Translations under genes and position numbers: made by a program
The notes under the pieces: model-generated
The model's database searches: none
Told to the model about the DNA's origin: nothing
Seen by the model: the letters and a program-made list of their open reading frames with translations, nothing else
From: Methylobacterium sp. J-088
Lineage (GTDB): Bacteria > Pseudomonadota > Alphaproteobacteria > Rhizobiales > Beijerinckiaceae
Length of the DNA stretch: 64,000 nt
Assembly (NCBI RefSeq): GCF_022829295.1
Contig: NZ_JAKSYH010000028.1
Span: 1 to 64,000 of the forward strand
Direction: 5' to 3'
In this document: positions 8,332 through 44,030 of the stretch, one piece after another
How positions within the stretch are numbered: position 1 is the stretch's first letter
Layout: every line of letters starts with the position of its first letter

Positions 8332-8424
8332 TGGCGGAAGCGGATGGGAATCGAACCCACCGTACGCTGTTGGCGTACCGCTGGTTTTGAAGACCAGGAG
8401 GGCCACCAGACCCCGTTCGCCTCC
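8332..8424 (-). tRNA. selC: tRNA-Sec (anticodon UCA)
   Basis: A 93-nt tRNA with an encoded CCA tail. The anticodon loop CTTCAAA places UCA at 8388-8390. The long acceptor arm begins GGAGGCG and pairs with CGCTTCC (one G-U). The variable arm is long (GGTACGC / GCGTACG stem) and the T-arm contains GGGTTCGATTCCC. The long extra arm and extended acceptor stem are features of selenocysteine tRNA rather than of a UGA suppressor. No selA, selB or selD gene is in the window. A selenoprotein such as formate dehydrogenase is expected elsewhere in the genome. Confidence 0.93.
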
Positions 8425-20704: not shown

Positions 20705-21836
20705 TCAGCGCGTCGCATGCCGGGTCCGGCGGATCGCGATCAGGACTCGCCGGGTTTTCCGGGCGCCGGCTCGCGCGTGGTGCCGCAGATGGCCGCGTCG
20801 CGAGGTGCGCGCCAGGCCGTGCTGCGTCTTGTTCCAGTGCTCCGGGGCGCGGACCAACTCGACCAGCGCCAGCCAAGCCCCCACGCTCACCAGCAGGAAG
20901 TAGACCGGCATCCCCAGGGCGTACGGGACGAGATTGCCCCAGCCGCGGCGGATGCAGCCCAGCAGGGCGGGGAGGATGAGGGCTCCGAGCCCCGTCCCGA
21001 ACAGGGTGATGGCGAGCCCCGTGTCGAGATTGTCCAGGAAGCGGGGGGCGGCCGGGATCTCGCGGACGAGAAAGGCCCAGATCGCCGCCGCGAGACAGGC
21101 CGGGTAGACCAGGGCCGAAACCACGGTGCCGGGGACCAGGGCTGCCGCGCAGAGCGTCTCCAGCGGGCCGAGGCGGCGCGCATTGGAGAACGGGCTGCGC
21201 CCGTGGGCGAGACTCGTCTGGACGAGGCCCTTGAGCCAGCGGATGCGCTGGCCGAGCCACGGCCTGAACCGGTTGGGCGCCTCCTCGGCGGTGGCGCTCG
21301 GCAGGTCGCCGACCGTGTAGCCCGCGAGCGCCAGCCGCATCCCGAGATCGGCGTCCTCGGTGACATTGTGGGCATTCCAGCCGCCCAGGGCCCGGAGGAC
21401 CCGGACGCGCAGGTGCATCGAGGTGCCGCCAAGCGGGACCGGCAGCCGGCACCGGGCGAGCGCCGGGTTCAGAACGTCGAACAGGCCGGCATATTCCACG
21501 GCATAGGCGCGGGTGAGCCAGCAATCGTCGGCATTGTCGATCACGAGCCGCGCCTGAAGGCAGGCGGTGCGCACGGACAGGCGTGCGAACAGCGCGGCGG
21601 ACAGGCGCAATTGCCCGGGATCAGGATCGTCCTCCGCGTCGTAGACCGTGAGCAGGTCCCCCCGGGCCAGTGGCAGGCCGACATTGAGCGCCCGCGGCTT
21701 GGTGCGCGGGCCGCCCGGCGGCACCACGATCACCTCGAACCGGGCGGGCAGGGGGATCCGCGCGAGCATCGCCCGCATCCCCAGATCGTCGGCCTCGATC
21801 AGCAGCTTGATGTCGAGCTTGGCCGGGGGATAATCG
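20705..21836 (-). pseudogene. Glycosyltransferase family 2, C-terminal half (split by transposon)
   Basis: This is the 3' part of a membrane GT2 enzyme. It begins at the transposon target site with DYPPAKLDIKLLIEADD. It has GT2 motifs: KPRALNVGLPLARGDLLTVYDAEDDP (the second Asp motif), a TED motif in NVTEDADLGMRLALAG, and QRIRWLKG (Q/RxxRW). Several membrane helices follow (about residues 220-330 of this half). Motif and frame continue exactly from the 5' half at 26265-27048 once the 4,428-bp insertion and one target copy are removed. A fragment could still be translated from an internal ATG at 21778, but it would lack the first catalytic motif. Confidence 0.9.
21829..21836. repeat. Target-site duplication, left copy (GATAATCG)
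   Basis: Eight bases directly outside the left inverted repeat, identical to 26265-26272 outside the right one. Eight-base duplications are characteristic of the IS1595 family. Confidence 0.9.
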
Positions 21837-21874
21837 CGGTATTATGCAGCAACCTCACCCAAAAGCGTTGAGGT
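21837..21874. repeat. Left terminal inverted repeat of the IS1595-family transposon
   Basis: 38 bases beginning CGGTATTATGCAGCAACCTC. It matches the reverse complement of 26227-26264 at 37 of 38 positions. Confidence 0.93.
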
Positions 21875-21882
21875 AGGCTACG

Positions 21883-22464
21883 TCAACTTTTCTTACCAGC
21901 TGGAATAACTTCCGTAGTTGGCACTTCAGAATCCCCAGCTTCATCTGAACCCGCCGACAAAAACGATACCTTGCGACCACCGGTGATAAGCTGGCCCACA
22001 ATACCCAACGAGCCAACACCAAATGCGATATATGAAAGTTTTTCGGCACCTAAATAATACATGACTCCAGAAAATATTATTAAGAAGAAAAACGCAGCTA
22101 AACCATAACGGCGCCCCTGCCGCACCGACGAAAAATCCTCTGTCGCTATTGTTCTGATTAAGCCAAGCTCCTCTTGCTTAATATCAAGCTCCCGCCTCTC
22201 GATTTCATTGTTGTGCAATATTGTGTCGGAAGCAGTTTTGACGATTAGCGCAGTGGATCCGGGGGCAAGCTGCTCAATTTGCCGCAGAATGTCAGGATGA
22301 GGATAGGCACTCGCGTACCGTTCGACTACTGCGCTCGCGCGCGTCACGACCTCTTGACGCGCTTGCGCAGGGAGCGTGGTCCCGCTTAGTGCGCGCTCCA
22401 CTTCCCCACGGATCTCTTTGGTCGCAGTCACGTGCGTCCTTTCGTGATCCTTATTCCGGGCCAT
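21883..22464 (-). CDS. DUF2335-like membrane protein (transposon cargo)
   Basis: A 193-residue protein. The central region HPDILRQIEQLAPGSTALIVKTASD, followed by HNNEIERRELDIKQEE and a GRRYGLAAFF helix start, resembles the DUF2335 predicted membrane family. Two membrane helices lie at about residues 120-140 and 145-163, with a hydrophilic tail. It starts at the ATG at 22464, overlapping the upstream gene by 14 bp, so the two proteins are probably made in fixed ratio. Low GC marks it as foreign. The function is unknown; a membrane effector in a defence pair is one possibility (inference). Confidence 0.75.
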   Translation of the reverse strand: MARNKDHERTHVTATKEIRGEVERALSGTTLPAQARQEVVTRASAVVERYASAYPHPDILRQIEQLAPGSTALIVKTASDTILHNNEIERRELDIKQEELGLIRTIATEDFSSVRQGRRYGLAAFFFLIIFSGVMYYLGAEKLSYIAFGVGSLGIVGQLITGGRKVSFLSAGSDEAGDSEVPTTEVIPAGKKS

Positions 22465-22852
22465 TCTGAGCGCGCCTCATAACCTTTGGGCGGCGTACTT
22501 GACGCAATTTGCCCTCTTGGTCGAGTCGGCGCACAATTTCAGTGGTGATTAGCAGATGGTTATTTGTTGCGATCTTGTTCATGGCTTCCGTCAGGGCTTG
22601 CGCAATAATCGATGCATCCTCTTGAGTGTTAAATGCATAGCTGCGCGAGCCCTCAAGCGTTTTTAAATTTATCTTATTATTTCGAACCTCAACCATATTA
22701 TTTAGAACTTCTGGCTGAGCACCCATCATGCTAGGACCGGATAGGCCTTGCAGTACGCCGCTCCAAAACGACTTGCGCTTCACGGCAGACACCTTAATAC
22801 CAGTGCCGAAGCCGATTTTGTGACCGCCAGTCACAAATGTAGATACGGACAC
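22451..22852 (-). CDS. Unknown protein, first gene of a cargo pair
   Basis: A 133-residue protein starting at a GTG (22852) behind a strong GAGGAGGAA site. No family was recognised. The N-terminus is basic and Gly/Lys-rich (GGHKIGFGTGIKVSAVKRK), the middle has a beta-rich VEVRNNKINLKTLEGSRSYAF segment, and the C-terminus is helical and basic. No membrane segment is seen. It overlaps the following membrane-protein gene by 14 bp, so a joint function is likely. It has AT-rich codon use unlike the chromosome. Confidence 0.7.
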   Translation of the reverse strand: MSVSTFVTGGHKIGFGTGIKVSAVKRKSFWSGVLQGLSGPSMMGAQPEVLNNMVEVRNNKINLKTLEGSRSYAFNTQEDASIIAQALTEAMNKIATNNHLLITTEIVRRLDQEGKLRQVRRPKVMRRAQNGPE

Positions 22853-23101
22853 GGCTTCCTCCTCAGGATCATGCTACAGCCCAGCTTGCCAAGGTCTTAC
22901 CGGCCGGAACAAGGCATGGTGTGTGGCATTCTGTCCCACGCGCACACAGGCCTGTCGTGTCGAGCGCCGACTCAGCTAGCTTCATAGCTGTGAACGATCA
23001 TCGGTATATGGTGATTCTAGGGGTTGACACCATAGAAGGAGCGATTCTCGCTGGGAATCCCTTGAGCCCAAGTTTGTGAGTTTCTGAATAACAGAACCGG
23101 A
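22853..23101. other. Intergenic region inside the transposon
   Basis: AT-richer non-coding DNA between the transposase-linked gene (stop at 23102) and the cargo pair (start at 22852). It should hold the promoter of the pair. No repeat or RNA structure stood out. Confidence 0.45.
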
Positions 23102-23557
23102 TCAGACGCTTATTGAGGCGCCCAGGGTAGAAAGGCGCCACATGCGCACACCTTTCCGCTTGCCCGCATCGCCAATTCGCTCTTGCATCGCAGCCCGCGA
23201 GAGGTTTTGAACTATGCGGTAAGCTATGGCTTTCCGCAGCATCACGTCATCTTCGTCCCAGCCCTTTGCGCGGATGATGGCCCGCGTGATCTCCCGCGTA
23301 TCCAGAGGCTTCCCAGCTTCCGCTATGGCTGCCTTGCACAGCTTGAACATCTCCCCATAGGCGAACAACCGGTTGAGGTTGGCGTAGGCCGGGAAGCGGG
23401 TCTGTGTGGACGGGGATAGGTCATAAAGCGCCAGCACAGCGTTGACGCTGGATAGATCGCGCTCAGCAGCGGCGAGCTGGCGCCGAAGCTCACGGATATG
23501 AGCCTCAATCTCGTTACGCTTCCCAGTGAGGGTGTTGACGATCTGAGGGAGGGCCAT
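23102..23557 (-). CDS. Transposase-coupled coiled-coil/winged-helix protein
   Basis: A 151-residue protein. The ATG at 23557 shares one base with the transposase stop (TGATG), so translation is coupled; a longer frame upstream is only a shadow of the transposase gene. The N-terminal coiled coil KRNEIEAHIRELRRQLAAAE is followed by a predicted winged helix (LDTREITRAIIRAKGW..RIVQNLSRAAMQERIG). The architecture matches that of the cargo protein at 25296-26081. It may assist transposition or regulate it; the function is unproven. Confidence 0.75.
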   Translation of the reverse strand: MALPQIVNTLTGKRNEIEAHIRELRRQLAAAERDLSSVNAVLALYDLSPSTQTRFPAYANLNRLFAYGEMFKLCKAAIAEAGKPLDTREITRAIIRAKGWDEDDVMLRKAIAYRIVQNLSRAAMQERIGDAGKRKGVRMWRLSTLGASISV

Positions 23558-24561
23558 CAGGCGACCGCCCCCTTCAGAAGCTGATGGCGCTGCCAGTAGC
23601 CCTTCCAAACCCGAGACGGGGCATGGGCGAGCGCGGCGCCCGTGATGATGGCGTACTGGCCGCCGTTGGACATGCGGCGGTAGTTCTCGCGCCAAGCCAT
23701 CTCACGCGCGTAGGCGGCGAGGTACGGGCCGGCGATCCGATGATGTACGCCCATCTCAGAACGGCGCAGACGGGCGAAATAGCTCTCTGCCTGATTGGTG
23801 CAGGCCTCGCCGTCGCTGTAGCTCTCTTGGTGATTGATGCGGTGGGTAGTGAAGCTCTTGTGCAGCCGGTCCCAGCCCTTCGCCTCGTCCGCGTGAACGA
23901 CGGAGCCGGGCAGCACGCGAGCCTCAATCGTCTCCACCGACTCGGCCTCAGATCGGAAGGCGAAGGTGAGGGCCTTACCGTTGCGCTCACGGATCACGAC
24001 GACGACGCGACGCTTGCCGGTCTGGTTCTCAGCGAGGCGACGGTCGCGCCGATCCGCCTTCATGTTCTCAGGGCGGACGTGGCCGCCGAAGTAGGCGCCA
24101 TCCACCTCAACGGTGCCGGACACGGTAGCTTCGGCCGTCTCAGCCGCGACAGCCTCACGAAGCTTGTGAGCCATCACGAACGCCGTGCGGTACTGGACGT
24201 TCAGGTCGCGGGAAAGTTGTAGGGCAGAGTGACCCTTGGCGCCGTTGGCGAAGATCGCGATGGCAAGGAGGTGATCGCGGATCGGGAGCTTGCGCGAGGC
24301 GAAGATGGTGCCGCTGGTGACGCTGTACTGGTGGCGGCACCCAGCGCACTTGAACAGCTTGCGAGTGGCGATGAACGAGTGCTTGAGGCAGCCGCAGCGC
24401 GGGCAGAACGGCTGCCCCTCGGTGGCCTCCCAGCGGATCGCCTTGAACGTCTCCCAAGCCGCGTCGTCGGACAGACGGGCGACCTGAGCAAGGGAGAGGG
24501 AGCGAGCGGCTTTGGAGAGGAGGAAGTGCTGAACCATCGCGGCCACCCGAACGTTTTGCAT
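23557..24561 (-). CDS. IS1595-family transposase (ISXO2-like)
   Basis: A 334-residue transposase. The N-terminal zinc ribbon uses C53, C56, C72 and C75 (FCPRCG and KCAGC). The catalytic domain has D154 in VEVDGAYFGG, D225 in VVHADEAKGW, and the final acidic position in NQAESYFARLRR (N256/E259), as in ISXO2-like DDE enzymes. It is intact and full length, so the element may still be mobile. It is divergent from the XRE regulator gene and followed without a gap by its accessory gene. Confidence 0.95.
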   Translation of the reverse strand: MQNVRVAAMVQHFLLSKAARSLSLAQVARLSDDAAWETFKAIRWEATEGQPFCPRCGCLKHSFIATRKLFKCAGCRHQYSVTSGTIFASRKLPIRDHLLAIAIFANGAKGHSALQLSRDLNVQYRTAFVMAHKLREAVAAETAEATVSGTVEVDGAYFGGHVRPENMKADRRDRRLAENQTGKRRVVVVIRERNGKALTFAFRSEAESVETIEARVLPGSVVHADEAKGWDRLHKSFTTHRINHQESYSDGEACTNQAESYFARLRRSEMGVHHRIAGPYLAAYAREMAWRENYRRMSNGGQYAIITGAALAHAPSRVWKGYWQRHQLLKGAVA

Positions 24562-24650
24562 TGAGGTGGACGATATGCGTTGCTTGGGATCAGGTCAACG
24601 CTTTTCGGTGCCTTGACGCAAAAAAGCGAACGCGCTAGATCCAACTCACG

Positions 24651-24899
24651 ATGACGCCAGAGCACTGTCGAGCTGCGAGAGGATGGTTGGGCTGGTCGCA
24701 AAACGATCTGTCCACAAGATCAAACGTGGGCTTGAGCACGATCCGCTCGTTTGAGAACGGATTGCGCACCCCGATCGCCAACAACCTGCTGGCAATGCGA
24801 CGCGCGTTTGAAGAGGCCGGCATCACCCTTACGGATGAGCCGGCCGGGATCACTTACTCGGCAGCGTCAGAGAAGAACGGGACGGGCATCGCCCCATGA
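24651..24899 (+). CDS. XRE-family transcriptional regulator (transposon)
   Basis: An 82-residue protein with a complete Cro/C1-type helix-turn-helix (ARGWLGWSQNDLSTRSNVGLSTIRSFENGLRTP, about residues 8-45). It is transcribed divergently from the transposase with about 90 bp between, a position suited to repress transposase expression. Its 3' end overlaps that of the small convergent gene at 24854-25042. Confidence 0.85.
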   Translation: MTPEHCRAARGWLGWSQNDLSTRSNVGLSTIRSFENGLRTPIANNLLAMRRAFEEAGITLTDEPAGITYSAASEKNGTGIAP

Positions 24900-25042
24900 T
24901 GGGAGAGGCCGCGCACGATCTTGGAGACCGTGCCGCCGTTGACGCAGAAGTAGAAGGCGGCCCGATCCTGCTTCCAGCCGAGAACCTTGACGGCGTGGAG
25001 GATGTGGCAAGCGGTGAGGTGGTCACAAGCGTAAGTGGTCAT
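24854..25042 (-). CDS. Small helix-turn-helix-like protein (transposon)
   Basis: A 62-residue protein whose core HAVKVLGWKQDRAAFYFCVN followed by GGTVSKIVRGLSHH reads like a short helix-turn-helix (pattern W.Q...A..F.VN.GTVS.I). Three cysteines and a His lie in the N-terminus (YACDHLTACHIL). It is convergent with, and overlaps, the XRE gene by 46 bp. It lies downstream of the hairpin cluster at 25081-25212. Confidence 0.55.
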   Translation of the reverse strand: MTTYACDHLTACHILHAVKVLGWKQDRAAFYFCVNGGTVSKIVRGLSHHGAMPVPFFSDAAE

Positions 25043-25080
25043 AGCTGGTCCTTAACGCCGTTCAGGCGAATTGAAGGGGA

Positions 25081-25212
25081 CCGGCTTGAACGAGACGACC
25101 AAAAGTGCGACTCTGAGCCTGTGGGGCTGTCGCTTTTGGTCGCTGTCCAAGCCGGATAGCAATTGAAATGATGGTTCTGGCTTCGGCTGGTGTTAGCGCA
25201 CCGGCCGAAGCC
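25081..25212. ncRNA. Hairpin cluster, possible structured RNA or recombination site
   Basis: Two strong stem-loops lie in non-coding DNA. The first (25081-25155) has an outer stem CCGGCTTG/CAAGCCGG, an inner stem GACCAAAAG/CTTTTGGTC, and a four-pair extension CGAC/GTCG after a two-base bulge. The second (25179-25212) has 14-bp arms with one G-U-type mismatch and loop TTAGCG. A short CCCTC-TTCT-GAGGG hairpin follows at about 25217. The strand of any transcript is unknown. Confidence 0.5.
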
Positions 25213-25295
25213 GTTACCCTCTTCTGAGGGCATGGTTGTCGGCCATGGCGTTCTCCTCTGTTAGCGCCGGACAGACGCGGGGTGGAACGGATAGG

Positions 25296-26081
25296 TCAGA
25301 CGAGACGAAGCGCCTTAAGGCGCCCGTCATCATCCGACCCGGCATCTGAGCCGTTCGACGCTGGAACGTCGGACGGCTCATTCTCTTTAGAGACAAGCTT
25401 ATAGCAACCGAGTCCGGTCTTCTCGATCACCCCTTGGCGAACGAGGCGCTGAATAGCGCTATAGCCATACTGCGGATTACCGCTTTGGCGTTCTCCAAAC
25501 TCGTCGCTCTCGCGCAACATCTCAATAATTGATCTCGGGGCTAGCTCGCCATTCTCTCGAATGGCGTTAAAGATGAAGAGATTAGATCCTTTTAGGCCTG
25601 AAAATCCAGCGTCTTCATCTATTGTATCCGCCGCAGACAGTTCTTCAAACAAGCTATGGCGATAAAATTTGTCACCATGCTTTGTAATTTGGGCGTCGTT
25701 GTGCAACCGATTGAGCGCATTGTAGAGACCATTCGGATTGCGCGTGATTTTATCTTTAGCCTCTAAACCTCCATTCTCTCGGATGAACAGAGCGATATCT
25801 TTGGGAAGCATGCCCGTAGTAGCAGCGTCCAACGCTTCCATAACAGCTTGTCGCCAGACGGAGGATCGTTCCGTCCCATCGCCTTCTTTGTCCGACGCTT
25901 CAACGATGCCGGAGAGGAAGTGAGCGGGGACAATCAACCGGACTGCGTCAAGCCACCGATCCTCAGCAGCGAGCTTTTGCTGAAGCGTGTCAATCTGTTC
26001 TGCGATCTGATCACGCTTTGCCTTCCGGGCGAGGATATCCTCGCGGGTCAAGCTAAAGCTCCAAGGTGACGACTCAGCCAC
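25296..26081 (-). CDS. Coiled-coil protein with two predicted winged helices (transposon cargo)
   Basis: A 261-residue protein. The N-terminal coiled coil is AKRDQIAEQIDTLQQKLAAE (about 20-42). It is followed by two similar segments resembling winged helices: ERSSVWRQAVMEALDAATTG with MLPKDIALFIRENGG, and NLFIFNAIRENGELAPRSII with YSAIQRLVRQGVIEKTGLGC. The end is acidic and low-complexity (NGSDAGSDDDGR). The layout of coiled coil then winged helix resembles the transposase-coupled protein at 23102-23557. AT-rich codons mark it as foreign. It is likely DNA-binding; its role is unknown. Confidence 0.7.
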   Translation of the reverse strand: MAESSPWSFSLTREDILARKAKRDQIAEQIDTLQQKLAAEDRWLDAVRLIVPAHFLSGIVEASDKEGDGTERSSVWRQAVMEALDAATTGMLPKDIALFIRENGGLEAKDKITRNPNGLYNALNRLHNDAQITKHGDKFYRHSLFEELSAADTIDEDAGFSGLKGSNLFIFNAIRENGELAPRSIIEMLRESDEFGERQSGNPQYGYSAIQRLVRQGVIEKTGLGCYKLVSKENEPSDVPASNGSDAGSDDDGRLKALRLV

Positions 26082-26226
26082 GCCACGCGCTCCGGTTGCG
26101 GTAGCAAGGTGCCCGACTCTAAATATATTTGCAAGCCACTCCTCTCATCCGACCTGGGAGGTTGGGAGGTTAGGAGGTTGGGACCTCCGGAGGTTCGAAA
26201 CTTCGAAGTACTGAAATCGTCAATCG

Positions 26227-26264
26227 ACCTCAACGCTTTTAGGTGAGGTTGCTGCATAATACCG
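26227..26264. repeat. Right terminal inverted repeat of the IS1595-family transposon
   Basis: The reverse complement matches 21837-21874 with a single mismatch. It is followed directly by the second target copy GATAATCG at 26265-26272. Confidence 0.93.
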
Positions 26265-27048
26265 GATAATCGAGCGCCGCCAGCGCCCGCAGCAGCGCCT
26301 GAACCACCGCGGCCTCCCGGTAGAGGGGGACCAGGACGGTGTAGACCGGCAGGGCGGAATCGGTGAGGGGCGGCACCGCAGCCGTGATCGGGGCCGCGAT
26401 CGCCAGGGCTGCGAGGCGGACGGTCGTCAGGGCCAGGAACAGGCTCTGCACGATCAGCACCGCCGCGCGGGCGAGCGGCGCCGGAAGTGCGGCCCAGAGC
26501 GAGAGCCCGGCGGTGAGCGTGAGAGCCAGGACCAGCAACCACCAGACGGCGGACTCGCGCGCATTCGCCTGCCCGGGCGCGTGCCACGCGCGATCCTGTG
26601 TGGCGTAATCCGCCACCCGCTTCGGGATCGCGGCGAACACAGCCTCGCGCAGGTGGGTCGGGCTGGTGATAGCCACCGGGCCGATCCGGCGTGGGCTGCC
26701 GAGCAGGCTCGCGATGATCTGGCCGCGCGGCGCCACCACCCAGGGCACCGCCGAGTCAGAGGCCAGCGGCGCGAGACCGGTGACCAGACTCTCGGGAAAG
26801 CGCAGGCCCGGACCGAACCGGATCGGGCCGGCCAGATAGGGGGCCCCGAGCGCCCGGGCGAGGGCACGGTAATACGCCGCCTCCTCCATCAGGCCGGCAT
26901 TCAGCAGCGCGGTCGCCGCATCTGTGCCGGCCTTGGCCGCGTCGGCGGCGGCCCGGATCAGCAGCCGGCTCTCGACTCCCTCCCCCCGCAGGAAGGCGAT
27001 CTCCGGCGGCAGGCCCCCCGGCCCTGCCGACGAGCGATGGAACGGCAC
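26265..27048 (-). pseudogene. Glycosyltransferase family 2, N-terminal half (split by transposon)
   Basis: The 5' part of the GT2 gene. The GTG at 27048 is the most likely start, because a GGGGGAG site lies six bases upstream. It encodes an N-terminal regulatory-type domain (EEAAYYRALARALGAPYLAG, as in GspE/MshEN-like heads of bacterial GT2 enzymes), two membrane helices (about 155-200), then PVYTVLVPLYREAAVVQALL, the first GT2 strand. The frame is cut in LAALDYP and ends in the transposon repeat at 26239. With the 3' half the original protein was about 640 residues, probably a polysaccharide synthase. Confidence 0.85.
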
Positions 27049-27091
27049 GCCACGCTCCCCCGGTGGCCCCCGGACGTGATAGGGACGGCGG

Positions 27092-28138
27092 GTGAGCCAG
27101 TCCCTGTCCCCACGCTCCGATCGGAGCACAGCCCACCTCTCGGAAGCGCCCACGGATGTGGCGCGCTCAAAGGCGGCTCTAAGGCCCAGTCTAAGCCCGC
27201 TCTCTTGCGCTGACCTTGCGTCTCGTCCGGGGAACGCCCGCGCGGCGCGGCACGGCGGACGGTGCAGTCCCATCCGGTTCGCGGCGGCCGTGCTCGCATT
27301 CGCCCTGTGCATTGTGTGGGGCGGGCCGCCACGGAGCGCCGCGGCGGCGGAGAGTCAGGCTGCGACGCCCGTCGTCACGGTGCCGAATTTCTGGAATCCG
27401 CGCAGCCGCGGCGAGCGGGTCGAGGCCCCCCAGACCGGCCGGGCGGTCCGCTTCCTCACCGACGACGAGTTCCCGCCGCTGCACTTCGCCGGCCCAGACG
27501 GCAACCCGACGGGTTTCGTGGTCGAACTCGCCCGCGCGGTCTGCGAGAAACTGGCCATCACCTGCACGGTTCAGGCGCGCCGCTTCGACACCCTATTGGA
27601 CGCGCTGGACACCAAGCAGGGCGACGTGGTCGCCGCCGCGATCCCCTTGACGGCGGGCCTGCGCGAGAAATTCCTGGCGACCCGCCCGTATTTCCGATGG
27701 GCCGCGCGCTTCGCGGCCCGGACCGACAAGGGCCTGCCGGTCCCCTCGGCTGCGGCACTCGCCGGCCGCAGCGTCGGGGTGATGGCCGGCAGCGCGCATG
27801 CCGCCTACCTGAAGGCGTTCTTCCCGAAGGCGGTGCCGAAGGATTTCACCGACCTGACGGCGGCCGAGGGCGCGCTCAAGCGCGGGGAGATCGATTACCT
27901 CTTCGCCGACGGCCTCAACCTCGCCCTCTATGTCGGCGGCCAGGACGCGGAGAATTGCTGCGCGCTCACCGGCGGCGACTACCTGGAGAACCGCTATTTT
28001 GGGGAGGGGATCGGCCTGATCACCCGCCCGGAGGACGCGGCCCTCTCGCGCGCCCTGGACGATGCGCTCCAGCGGGTCTGGGACGACGGCAAGTACACCG
28101 AATTGTACCTGCGGTTCTTTCCGGTTAGCCCGTTCTGA
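27092..28138 (+). CDS. Periplasmic amino-acid-type solute-binding protein
   Basis: A bacterial solute-binding family 3 protein. The mature body shows RAVRFLTDDEFPPLHFAGPD, GFVVELARAVCEKL, FDTLLDALDTKQGDVVAAAI and ALAGRSVGVMAGSAHAAYL, all in family order, with the C-terminal LYLRFFP. A signal peptide IRFAAAVLAFALCIVW precedes it. The start is uncertain: the GTG at 27092 or the GTG at 27158 are the in-frame options, and the first overlaps no other likely start. It may bind a polar amino acid or feed the neighbouring glycosyltransferase system; no transporter genes are adjacent. Confidence 0.8.
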   Translation: MSQSLSPRSDRSTAHLSEAPTDVARSKAALRPSLSPLSCADLASRPGNARAARHGGRCSPIRFAAAVLAFALCIVWGGPPRSAAAAESQAATPVVTVPNFWNPRSRGERVEAPQTGRAVRFLTDDEFPPLHFAGPDGNPTGFVVELARAVCEKLAITCTVQARRFDTLLDALDTKQGDVVAAAIPLTAGLREKFLATRPYFRWAARFAARTDKGLPVPSAAALAGRSVGVMAGSAHAAYLKAFFPKAVPKDFTDLTAAEGALKRGEIDYLFADGLNLALYVGGQDAENCCALTGGDYLENRYFGEGIGLITRPEDAALSRALDDALQRVWDDGKYTELYLRFFPVSPF

Positions 28139-42867: not shown

Positions 42868-43069
42868 GAGCCCGCAGCGCGGTTGTCGTGCCCACGCCTT
42901 CGCGTCACCGGACGCAGATCGATCGTTGGCTCAAGCCGCAGCCCACAGGTTGGCTGTGCAGAGATGTCGAAAATCCCACACAGCTCACATGACGCGTTGT
43001 CGGTAAGCGAAGCCGACGCGTAGCATGAGCCTCGTGAGAGACCTATGTCTATGCTATGGGGATGGCGTC

Positions 43070-43321
43070 ATGCGCACGGGCAAATTCAAGATCAGCTATC
43101 CGGCAGCTGCACAGCTCGCGTTGCTGCCCCAGGCCGAGAAGGCAGCCCTGAAGCGCCTGTTCGCAAGTGATGAGATCGAGCAGCCGGAAACGACGAAGCC
43201 GATCAGCGATGGTCGTTTCGTATCCCGGCTCGGAAACAAGCGTGTGCTGTGGCGTCGGCAATCCTCGGATAACGCGCCGGAGATCCTCTCGATCGTCGAT
43301 CATTCGTTTGCTCAAGCCTGA
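43070..43321 (+). CDS. RelE-like small protein, partner of Shedu-like gene
   Basis: An 83-residue protein starting at the ATG at 43070 (MRTGKFKISYPAAAQLALLPQ). Its end NKRVLWRRQSSDNAPEILSI then VDHSF follows the RelE/ParE strand pattern (R-V-L-W-R ... I-L-x-I-V-D), but it lacks some usual active-site residues. No antitoxin gene is next to it. It stops directly before the ATG of the DUF4263-like gene (no gap), so both are one transcript. It is moderately AT-rich. The function is inferred from fold pattern only. Confidence 0.6.
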   Translation: MRTGKFKISYPAAAQLALLPQAEKAALKRLFASDEIEQPETTKPISDGRFVSRLGNKRVLWRRQSSDNAPEILSIVDHSFAQA

Positions 43322-43942
43322 ATGAGCAGTTTTGAAAGAATCAAATTCGATCTGAGGCACGCCGACACCGAATTGGCATCGTTCAAGGCATGGCTCGCTG
43401 CGGTGAATTTCGTTGGCGAGACGGTTATTGTTTCTGAAATCAAGAAGCGGCGACACATGGCCTGCCTTTTAGCTTCGACGTTAGGTCTGCCAGCGCCTGA
43501 TATGATCAAGTTCGAACTCGCGCTCAAAGGAATGTTTCGCACCGACTTGGTGCTTGGTAACGATGGTCAACGCCGGTTCGGGCTCATCGAATTCGAGGAT
43601 GCGGAAGCAACGAGCATCTTCAAGAAAGGCACCCCTCAATATCGTTTCTGGTCGCCGCGGATCGAGCATGGATTCAGCCAGATCCTCGATTGGGCTTGGG
43701 TACGATCCGATCATCCAAACGATTCGGTTCTGCTCGGCGGCTTTGGTGGCCCGATCACCACGAATGCTTATGCCGTCATTTGCGGTCGCGACGCGAGCTT
43801 GGCCGACGACGTGGAACGTAAAAGGTTCAAGCATCGTCGCGATCACCTTAAGGTGGAAGGCCAACCAGCTTTGGTGCTGACGTACGACGAGATGGTGCGC
43901 AGCATGGAGGATAATCTCTCAGTCGCGAAAACCTGGACTTGA
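43322..43942 (+). CDS. Shedu/DUF4263-like nuclease-family protein
   Basis: A 206-residue protein. FRTDLVLGN (D75), followed by the core strand FGLIEFEDAE (E90, E92) and later EHGFSQILDWAWV (Q120), follows the Shedu (DUF4263) arrangement of a PD-(D/E)xK nuclease with a trailing Gln. The usual catalytic Lys of ExK is Glu here, so activity is uncertain, or the Lys is supplied by KK at 101-102. Shedu proteins defend against phages. It is co-transcribed with the RelE-like gene. GC content is lower than that of its neighbours, suggesting transfer. Confidence 0.6.
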   Translation: MSSFERIKFDLRHADTELASFKAWLAAVNFVGETVIVSEIKKRRHMACLLASTLGLPAPDMIKFELALKGMFRTDLVLGNDGQRRFGLIEFEDAEATSIFKKGTPQYRFWSPRIEHGFSQILDWAWVRSDHPNDSVLLGGFGGPITTNAYAVICGRDASLADDVERKRFKHRRDHLKVEGQPALVLTYDEMVRSMEDNLSVAKTWT

Positions 43943-44030
43943 CGATGGAGCATGAACGGACCTCGATCCGATCGGAGCTCCTTCACGCGTCTTTACGAAG
44001 AGAAGATCTTTTCGCCCCCACCGCCCTCCC

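Follow-up and report, generated by a model that had tools for sequence, protein, structure and literature searches.

A candidate target-selecting protein in a group of IS1595-family transposons, one of which interrupts a glycosyltransferase gene in Methylobacterium sp. J-088

The 64,000-nucleotide stretch of Methylobacterium sp. J-088 DNA analysed here (contig NZ_JAKSYH010000028.1, positions 1 to 64,000, referred to below as the window) contains one complete transposon of the IS1595 family, at 21837-26264 (4,428 bp), enclosed by an 8-bp duplication and lying within a glycosyltransferase gene of the GT2 type. On sequence grounds it is likely that this is a target-selective transposon, in which a 151-amino-acid (aa) protein, here called P, would serve as a swappable target selector. 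With a little less assurance, we favour a wider proposal, two-component protein-guided transposition, in which an IS1595 transposase and an exchangeable selector P of about 150 aa would take elements as small as 1.5 kb, and their cargo, to precisely defined codons in conserved genes (comM, a GT2 gene of exopolysaccharide type and an export gene with SLBB domains), the Walker B motif of comM being reached independently of TnsF. The comparison that carries both proposals is phylogenetic: trees show that the insertion site follows the lineage of P, and not that of the transposase or of the regulator. The features concerned are these.

20705..21836, minus strand: GT2 gene, C-terminal part; PF13632, 77.5 vs 27 bits; matches homologue residues 265-625 (78%)
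21829..21836: target-site duplication, left copy, GATAATCG; identical to the 8 bases at 26265-26272
21837..21874: terminal inverted repeat, 38 bp, at the DUF2335 end; pairs with 26227-26264 at 37/38 positions (97%)
23102..23557, minus strand: P, a 151-aa coiled-coil/winged-helix protein, the proposed target selector; found in 65/65 elements
23557..24561, minus strand: IS1595-family transposase, zinc ribbon and DDE domain (Pfam and NCBIfam)
26227..26264: terminal inverted repeat, 38 bp, at the opposite end
26265..26272: target-site duplication, right copy, GATAATCG
26273..27312, minus strand: GT2 gene, N-terminal part; open reading frame (ORF) as listed, start approximate; matches homologue residues 3-266 (65%)

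The transposase exceeds the cut-offs for PF12762 (142.3 vs 27 bits), PF12760 (49.7 vs 25.4 bits) and the IS1595 model NF033547 (149 vs 75 bits). The Zn_ribbon_IS1595 and DDE_Tnp_IS1595 domains, the inverted repeats and the 8-bp duplication, the last being named as a trait of the family in a passage of PMC8101967, all place the element in the IS1595 family. A preliminary description, made from the sequence alone, had called it a complete IS1595-family element with passengers and 38-bp ends differing at one position, and was right on each count; the repeat pair is the top inverted repeat listed for 21500-26600, and both copies of the duplication are where they had been placed. The ends occur in the 6.4-Mb host genome as this one pair. 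The same end core with an 8-bp duplication is present in dozens of other genomes, and it was in part on the existence of such copies that the preliminary description had made its reading depend.

That description had also held that the element splits a GT2 gene. Both flanks match a single intact homologue of 627 aa (L196; loci are identified by L numbers and genomes by G numbers), and the two matches meet at the duplication. The split is no accident: the gene is a preferred and exact target, with 10 elements from different records inserted at the same codon.

Relatives of the element were collected by a contig search with a profile of seven transposases, which gave 472, of which the best 80 were used. 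Adding the window and five further loci brought the total to 86, of which 66 gave paired ends with duplications and 20 did not. Three with poor end pairs (L072, L116 and L119) were set aside, leaving 63 elements of 2.7-7.6 kb, and two plasmid-borne members (L187 and L188) were added to give 65. The elements were picked by transposase and not by insertion site, and the sample is limited to the 80 closest transposases. Sites were then assigned from translated flank matches, on the same strand, at the same starting distance and within 14 nt of the junction. By this measure 42 of the 65 share five insertion points, each fixed to the base, which are distributed over three conserved genes.

Site A: GT2 codons 265/266, at the LDYP motif; 10 elements, that of the window among them; orientation 5/5
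Site B: GT2 codons 405/406; 9 elements; orientation 4/5
Site C: comM/YifB, Walker B motif DELPEF; 12 elements; orientation 7/5
Site D: comM, after the Walker A region; 9 elements; orientation 6/3
Site E: polysaccharide-export gene with SLBB domains; 2 elements

The junctions at sites A and B were re-checked against the intact GT2 homologue and agree in 19/19 cases, and those at sites C and D were confirmed in 21/21, the gene being identified as comM by TIGR00368. Orientation is mixed at all four of sites A-D. By eye the site sequences have no sequence in common; next to the duplication, each site has a block of conserved coding sequence. Two elements, L228 and L089, share a third GT2 position, residue 371, and have no assigned P.

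The five site labels can be laid over the trees of each component. On the tree of P they need 4 changes, which is the minimum, against a mean of 24.5 for shuffled labels, and among labelled elements none of one P clade is at the site of another. In a careful P tree the clades have support of 100/99 (A), 100/97 (B), 96/70 (C), 97/84 (D) and 100/96 (E), and in 98-100% of 200 bootstrap P trees each site makes up one side of a branch among the labelled rows. On the transposase tree the same labels require 13 changes, and approximately unbiased (AU) tests reject trees in which the transposases of a site form one clade for B (p 1.5e-4), C (p 3e-6) and D (p 5e-5). The two regulator trees need 6 changes (least 2) and 7 changes (least 3); when the same rows are re-used, P needs 2 and 3, and the transposase 5 and 8.

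Individual exchanges can be recognised within these trees. The transposase of L066 (site A) adjoins those of L061, L062 and L075 (site B); that of L086 (site D) groups with those of L114 and L115 (site C); and that of L036 (site B) groups with those of L037 and L038, which have an A-type P. A P gene in the middle of an element follows the site just as one at its end does. The target thus changes with P and not with the transposase, as for a modular selector; the pattern is a phylogenetic one and is borderline for site A.

The association was also examined outside the labelled set, using per-site P profiles built from the labelled elements and applied to 43 further loci, of which 31 lack a paired end. 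In seven of these (L216, L083, L236, L052, L090, L094 and L072) P named the site, and lies inside the element. The scores of L216 and L083 are low, the comM match of L090 is weak, L094 shows one end only, and for L072 the flank was compared with L104. L233 agrees too and is not counted, being apparently identical with L053. In L229, which sits at site C, no P was found. L056, which combines an A-type P with a site-B end, was taken after the fact as no test, since its sole visible P lies outside the element.

Two of these loci deserve a separate remark. The likely true ends of L072 were recognised later, after its exclusion from the 63. At L056 (818-3308) a GT2 stretch has the site-B element on one side, and on the other an end-like sequence and the A-type P about 0.5 kb past the GT2 homology; there are perhaps two elements in one gene.

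P itself is a constant companion of the transposase. It was found in all 65 delimited elements, that is in 63/63 by iterated profile searches and in both two-gene members. The two smallest members, plasmid-borne and 1,543 and 1,691 bp long, consist of a transposase gene and a convergent P gene, with no regulator match. A passenger role for P was rejected, since no delimited element lacks it and the two-gene members have it too. A divergent regulator is present in 62/65 elements; iterated profile searches of the 63 found the XRE type in 28, another gene type in 34 and neither in L109. A scan of two genes of the second type gave a DUF6471 match for each; we read this type as a helix-turn-helix (HTH) protein. 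These comparisons show a core made up of the zinc-ribbon/DDE transposase and P, usually a divergent regulator, CGGYATTAKGTAGCAA-type ends and 8-bp duplications, together with variable cargo.

The same pairing is seen in whole genomes. Across 111 genomes of the genus, P adjoins 22/22 full-length group transposases (compared by eye), and of 33 places in the genus with P, 24 are next to a transposase of the group, the remaining 9 being partial or interrupted by stops (by eye). In 61 relatives, 9/9 P places adjoin a group transposase. P homologues number 784 among 7,998 scored candidates; of those listed, all but one have no Pfam match. The structural model of P (mean predicted local distance difference test score, pLDDT, 81.7; predicted template modelling score, pTM, 0.55) has a long helix at residues 4-45, followed by a winged-helix-like part.

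On the basis of these observations, we hypothesise that P would use its winged helix to bind conserved coding sequence bordering the point of insertion, and that its long helix would bring in or activate the transposase. Exchange of P between elements would then change the target, while the divergent regulator may repress transcription of the transposase.

Several results weigh against this proposal. The first is that 23 of the 65 elements are at none of the five sites. Eight of the off-site elements have a P of the A clade (L037, L038, L043, L045, L055, L068, L084 and L107), and the apparent hosts of L043 and L045 (G323 and G320, respectively) still have an open GT2 frame, of 635 aa and 646 aa. 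A clear P type, defined by a score of 100 bits or more and a lead of 40 over the second-best class, was obtained for 25 of the 43 left-out loci; in 13 of these an end is seen, away from all five sites (L077, L095, L103, L116, L185, L224, L227, L231, L232, L235, L237, L238 and L246), and four show no end (L051, L067, L082 and L234). L110 has a C-type P, yet a site-D end is visible nearby. The grouping of the site A transposases in one clade is not rejected at 0.05, the AU test being borderline (p 0.0502). In the 111 genus genomes, four of six partial or distant transposase places are without P. Finally, a Foldseek search with the P model gave no match with E <0.001, several of the best matches in the PDB being winged-helix regulators such as AntR and Fur, all with E >=0.001. 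Targeting is therefore a preference and not strict homing: the type of P tells which of the five sites an element uses if it uses one, and not that one is used.

The large number of elements at none of the five sites, a third or more, is what one would expect of an ordinary passenger-carrying IS1595 element, a 'transporter insertion sequence (IS)' like ISNha5. The transposase would have a short sequence preference, P and the XRE protein would be passenger regulators, and shared sites would reflect that preference together with survival in dispensable genes. One review passage cites ISNha5 as a transporter IS whose passengers are transcription regulators (PMC11891212), and the 8-bp duplications of our elements do have a loose pattern in common, with G/C then A/G at the left and T/C then G/C at the right. 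We nevertheless regard this explanation as unlikely. The site tracks P and not the transposase, P is retained in the minimal members as in every delimited element, and the insertions are at exact codons across a wide distance between hosts, and not at any copy of a loose 8-mer.

A different explanation accepts the correlation and denies that P is a selector: elements at one site would exchange P by recombination through the flanking gene that they share. The position of P makes such exchange conceivable. Among the 63 elements P lies downstream on the transposase strand in 15 and on the opposite strand in 48, and in 27 of these 48 a distance of 67-70 bp separates its start codon from the end of the element, so that exchange with the flank would be possible. 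However, P genes on the transposase strand, away from the end, are still in the clade of their site (at site A in L042, L044, L046, L047, L050 and the window; at site C in L096 and L117; at site B in L069). Identity of the N-side flanks at site A to the reference protein falls as low as 33%, and the differing orientations also work against homologous exchange. We consider this explanation improbable.

That the insertions are old and vertically inherited, with P clades that merely follow their hosts, is highly improbable: P and transposase similarities do correlate (Mantel r 0.39; 0/999 permutations as high) and some rows are close (L048/L049/L054; L061/L062), but the P tree calls for no fewer than 4, 4, 3 and 3 switches of orientation at sites A, B, C and D respectively (in-place inversion could imitate this), the transposase tree of the same hosts is not grouped by site, and of the 103 genomes among 111 of the genus with a strong match to the C-terminal half of the GT2 gene, 90 have an uninterrupted frame of >=500 aa in this position, so that the insertion is scattered.

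The target-selective reading, with P as selector, can now be set against the rest of the element in the window, whose other genes are as follows.

21883..22464, minus strand: DUF2335 gene, cargo gene 2, 193 aa; PF10097, E 1.8e-5; hydrophobic segments by eye
22451..22852, minus strand: orf133, cargo gene 1; overlaps the DUF2335 gene by 14 bp
24651..24899, plus strand: XRE-type HTH regulator, divergent from the transposase; PF01381, 31.7 vs a cut-off of 23 bits
24854..25042, minus strand: conserved small protein of 62 aa; homologues in 7 other Methylobacteriaceae elements
25296..26081, minus strand: P2, a 261-aa paralogue of P, reading inward from the other end; P profile, E 3e-28

The gene order on the minus strand is P2, the 62-aa gene, transposase, P, orf133 and DUF2335 gene, with the XRE gene on the plus strand; the ATG of P overlaps the TGA of the transposase (TGATG). 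P2 has homologues in 4 other related Methylobacteriaceae elements (phmmer, E<=1e-4). By eye it appears to contain two winged-helix units, and a second P match is present in 9/63 elements.

The preliminary description counted six accessory genes and took them as an unfamiliar set of cargo. Six ORFs other than the transposase are indeed present. Four of the six, however, are shared parts of the element group, namely P (65/65), the regulator (62/65), the 62-aa gene and P2, which form a mostly conserved module, and only the orf133–DUF2335 pair looks like cargo. The same description had noted a composition unlike that of the chromosome, and 1-kb bins bear this out: G+C is 51% and 54% in two bins inside the element and 61-63% in two over the transposase, and outside it is 64-77%, save for one bin of 55%. 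The hairpin region gave a single match to SymR, below threshold (26 bits, the gathering score being 61). Among the seven proteins of the element, none gave a match to Tn7-type proteins (TnsA/B/C, TniQ/TnsD/TnsF) in Pfam or NCBIfam.

The common end sequence of the group is about CGGYATTAKGTAGCAA.C.CACC. Distant IS1595 copies, intended as a control, gave end pairs in 2/14 only, which is too few. Some further occurrences of the ends were seen. L150 (genome G332) has at 1296-2300 a piece of about 1 kb with group ends, matching 8-base flanks and a broken P gene, and is likely to be a non-autonomous copy. A lone match to an element end (95.6% over 45 bases) is present in L184, the megaplasmid of Methylorubrum extorquens AM1. 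L116 has unusual ends, CTCCATTATG, and an A-like P, and is inserted at residue 17 of comM.

The DUF2335 protein scores 25 bits with PF10097, at the cut-off of 25. The orf133–DUF2335 pair recurs in the L043 element of Methylorubrum rhodinum (orf133 44%, DUF2335 58%), and homologues of the DUF2335 protein (67% and 61%) are present in 2 of 110 other genus genomes. In a large protein set and in 248 genomes of the family, orf133 matched only itself; on plasmids it had no match, and DUF2335 one weak match. Neither protein matched any PADLOC family at E 0.1, and the reading of the pair as a known defence system was dropped on that ground. Going by the company it keeps, our guess would be that it is a defence- or addiction-type two-gene passenger. 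Genes for an orf133-like protein (by eye) and a DUF2335 protein also stand alone, without a group transposase, at L183 (8777-9708, genome G336), where by eye the neighbours are rimO-like and dinB-like genes.

The cargo of the relatives was surveyed as their longest non-overlapping ORFs, excluding L035-L038 and L041, with 147/158 scanned; gene calling by codon score was dropped because it seemed to miss AT-rich cargo. Besides other matches, Pfam and PADLOC identified among the 147 five Panacea antitoxin domains, four P63C domains, three BstA matches (perhaps the same proteins as those with P63C domains), two methylase–Mrr fusions, a dCTP-deaminase defence protein, BglII and PemK. Defence-type genes are present in this cargo; enrichment is not claimed.

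Elsewhere in the window, ARAGORN reports a single tRNA gene, for selenocysteine (8332-8424, minus strand). The 55% G+C bin is at 43001-44000, against about 70%, and is possibly another imported stretch.

It remains to compare the group with known systems. In size range and passengers the window element presumably fits the ISNha5 group. In Tn7, a separate DNA-binding protein, TnsD, picks a conserved coding sequence; Tn7 requires TnsA/B/C, and inserts beside its gene, which is spared. The likeness to the present elements is that the target would be picked in conserved coding sequence by a separate protein; the difference is that here the host gene is broken. The best explanation of the sequence comparisons is that P may be to these elements what TnsD and TnsF are to Tn7-type elements, while being unrelated to them.

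Parts of this picture are already known. Passenger-bearing IS1595 elements have been described, ISNha5 being the example named in the passage of PMC11891212 cited above. Such elements have the same zinc-ribbon/DDE transposase, terminal inverted repeats, 8-bp duplication and passengers that include HTH regulators; what sets the window group apart is a constant P that tracks the site and recurrent insertion at exact codons. Modular selectors that hit the Walker B motif of comM are also known: the excerpted account of Tn6022 and Tsy elements with TnsF (PMC10293859) describes a modular selector, disruption of a host gene and the same position in comM as site C. Those elements have a different transposase or recombinase, and TnsF has a tyrosine-recombinase fold, whereas P is a coiled-coil/winged-helix protein of 140-165 aa; GT2 targets and IS1595 are not mentioned in the excerpt. 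A description of target selection or of a partner protein for IS1595 elements was not found in the literature searched by title and abstract opening, a search outside which the founding paper falls.

A swappable, separate target protein is thus familiar from Tn7-type elements, and here the same logic would operate in a simple IS-type transposon of another family. P is small enough for structural study and for swapping. If the proposal is true, it accounts for the finding of this GT2 gene and of comM interrupted at identical bases in scattered Alphaproteobacteria. The excerpt of PMC10293859 notes that, with comM disrupted, transformation by other mobile elements could be limited. Given the methylase–Mrr fusions, BstA-type and dCTP-deaminase genes of the relatives, the elements may deliver small defence systems to set locations.

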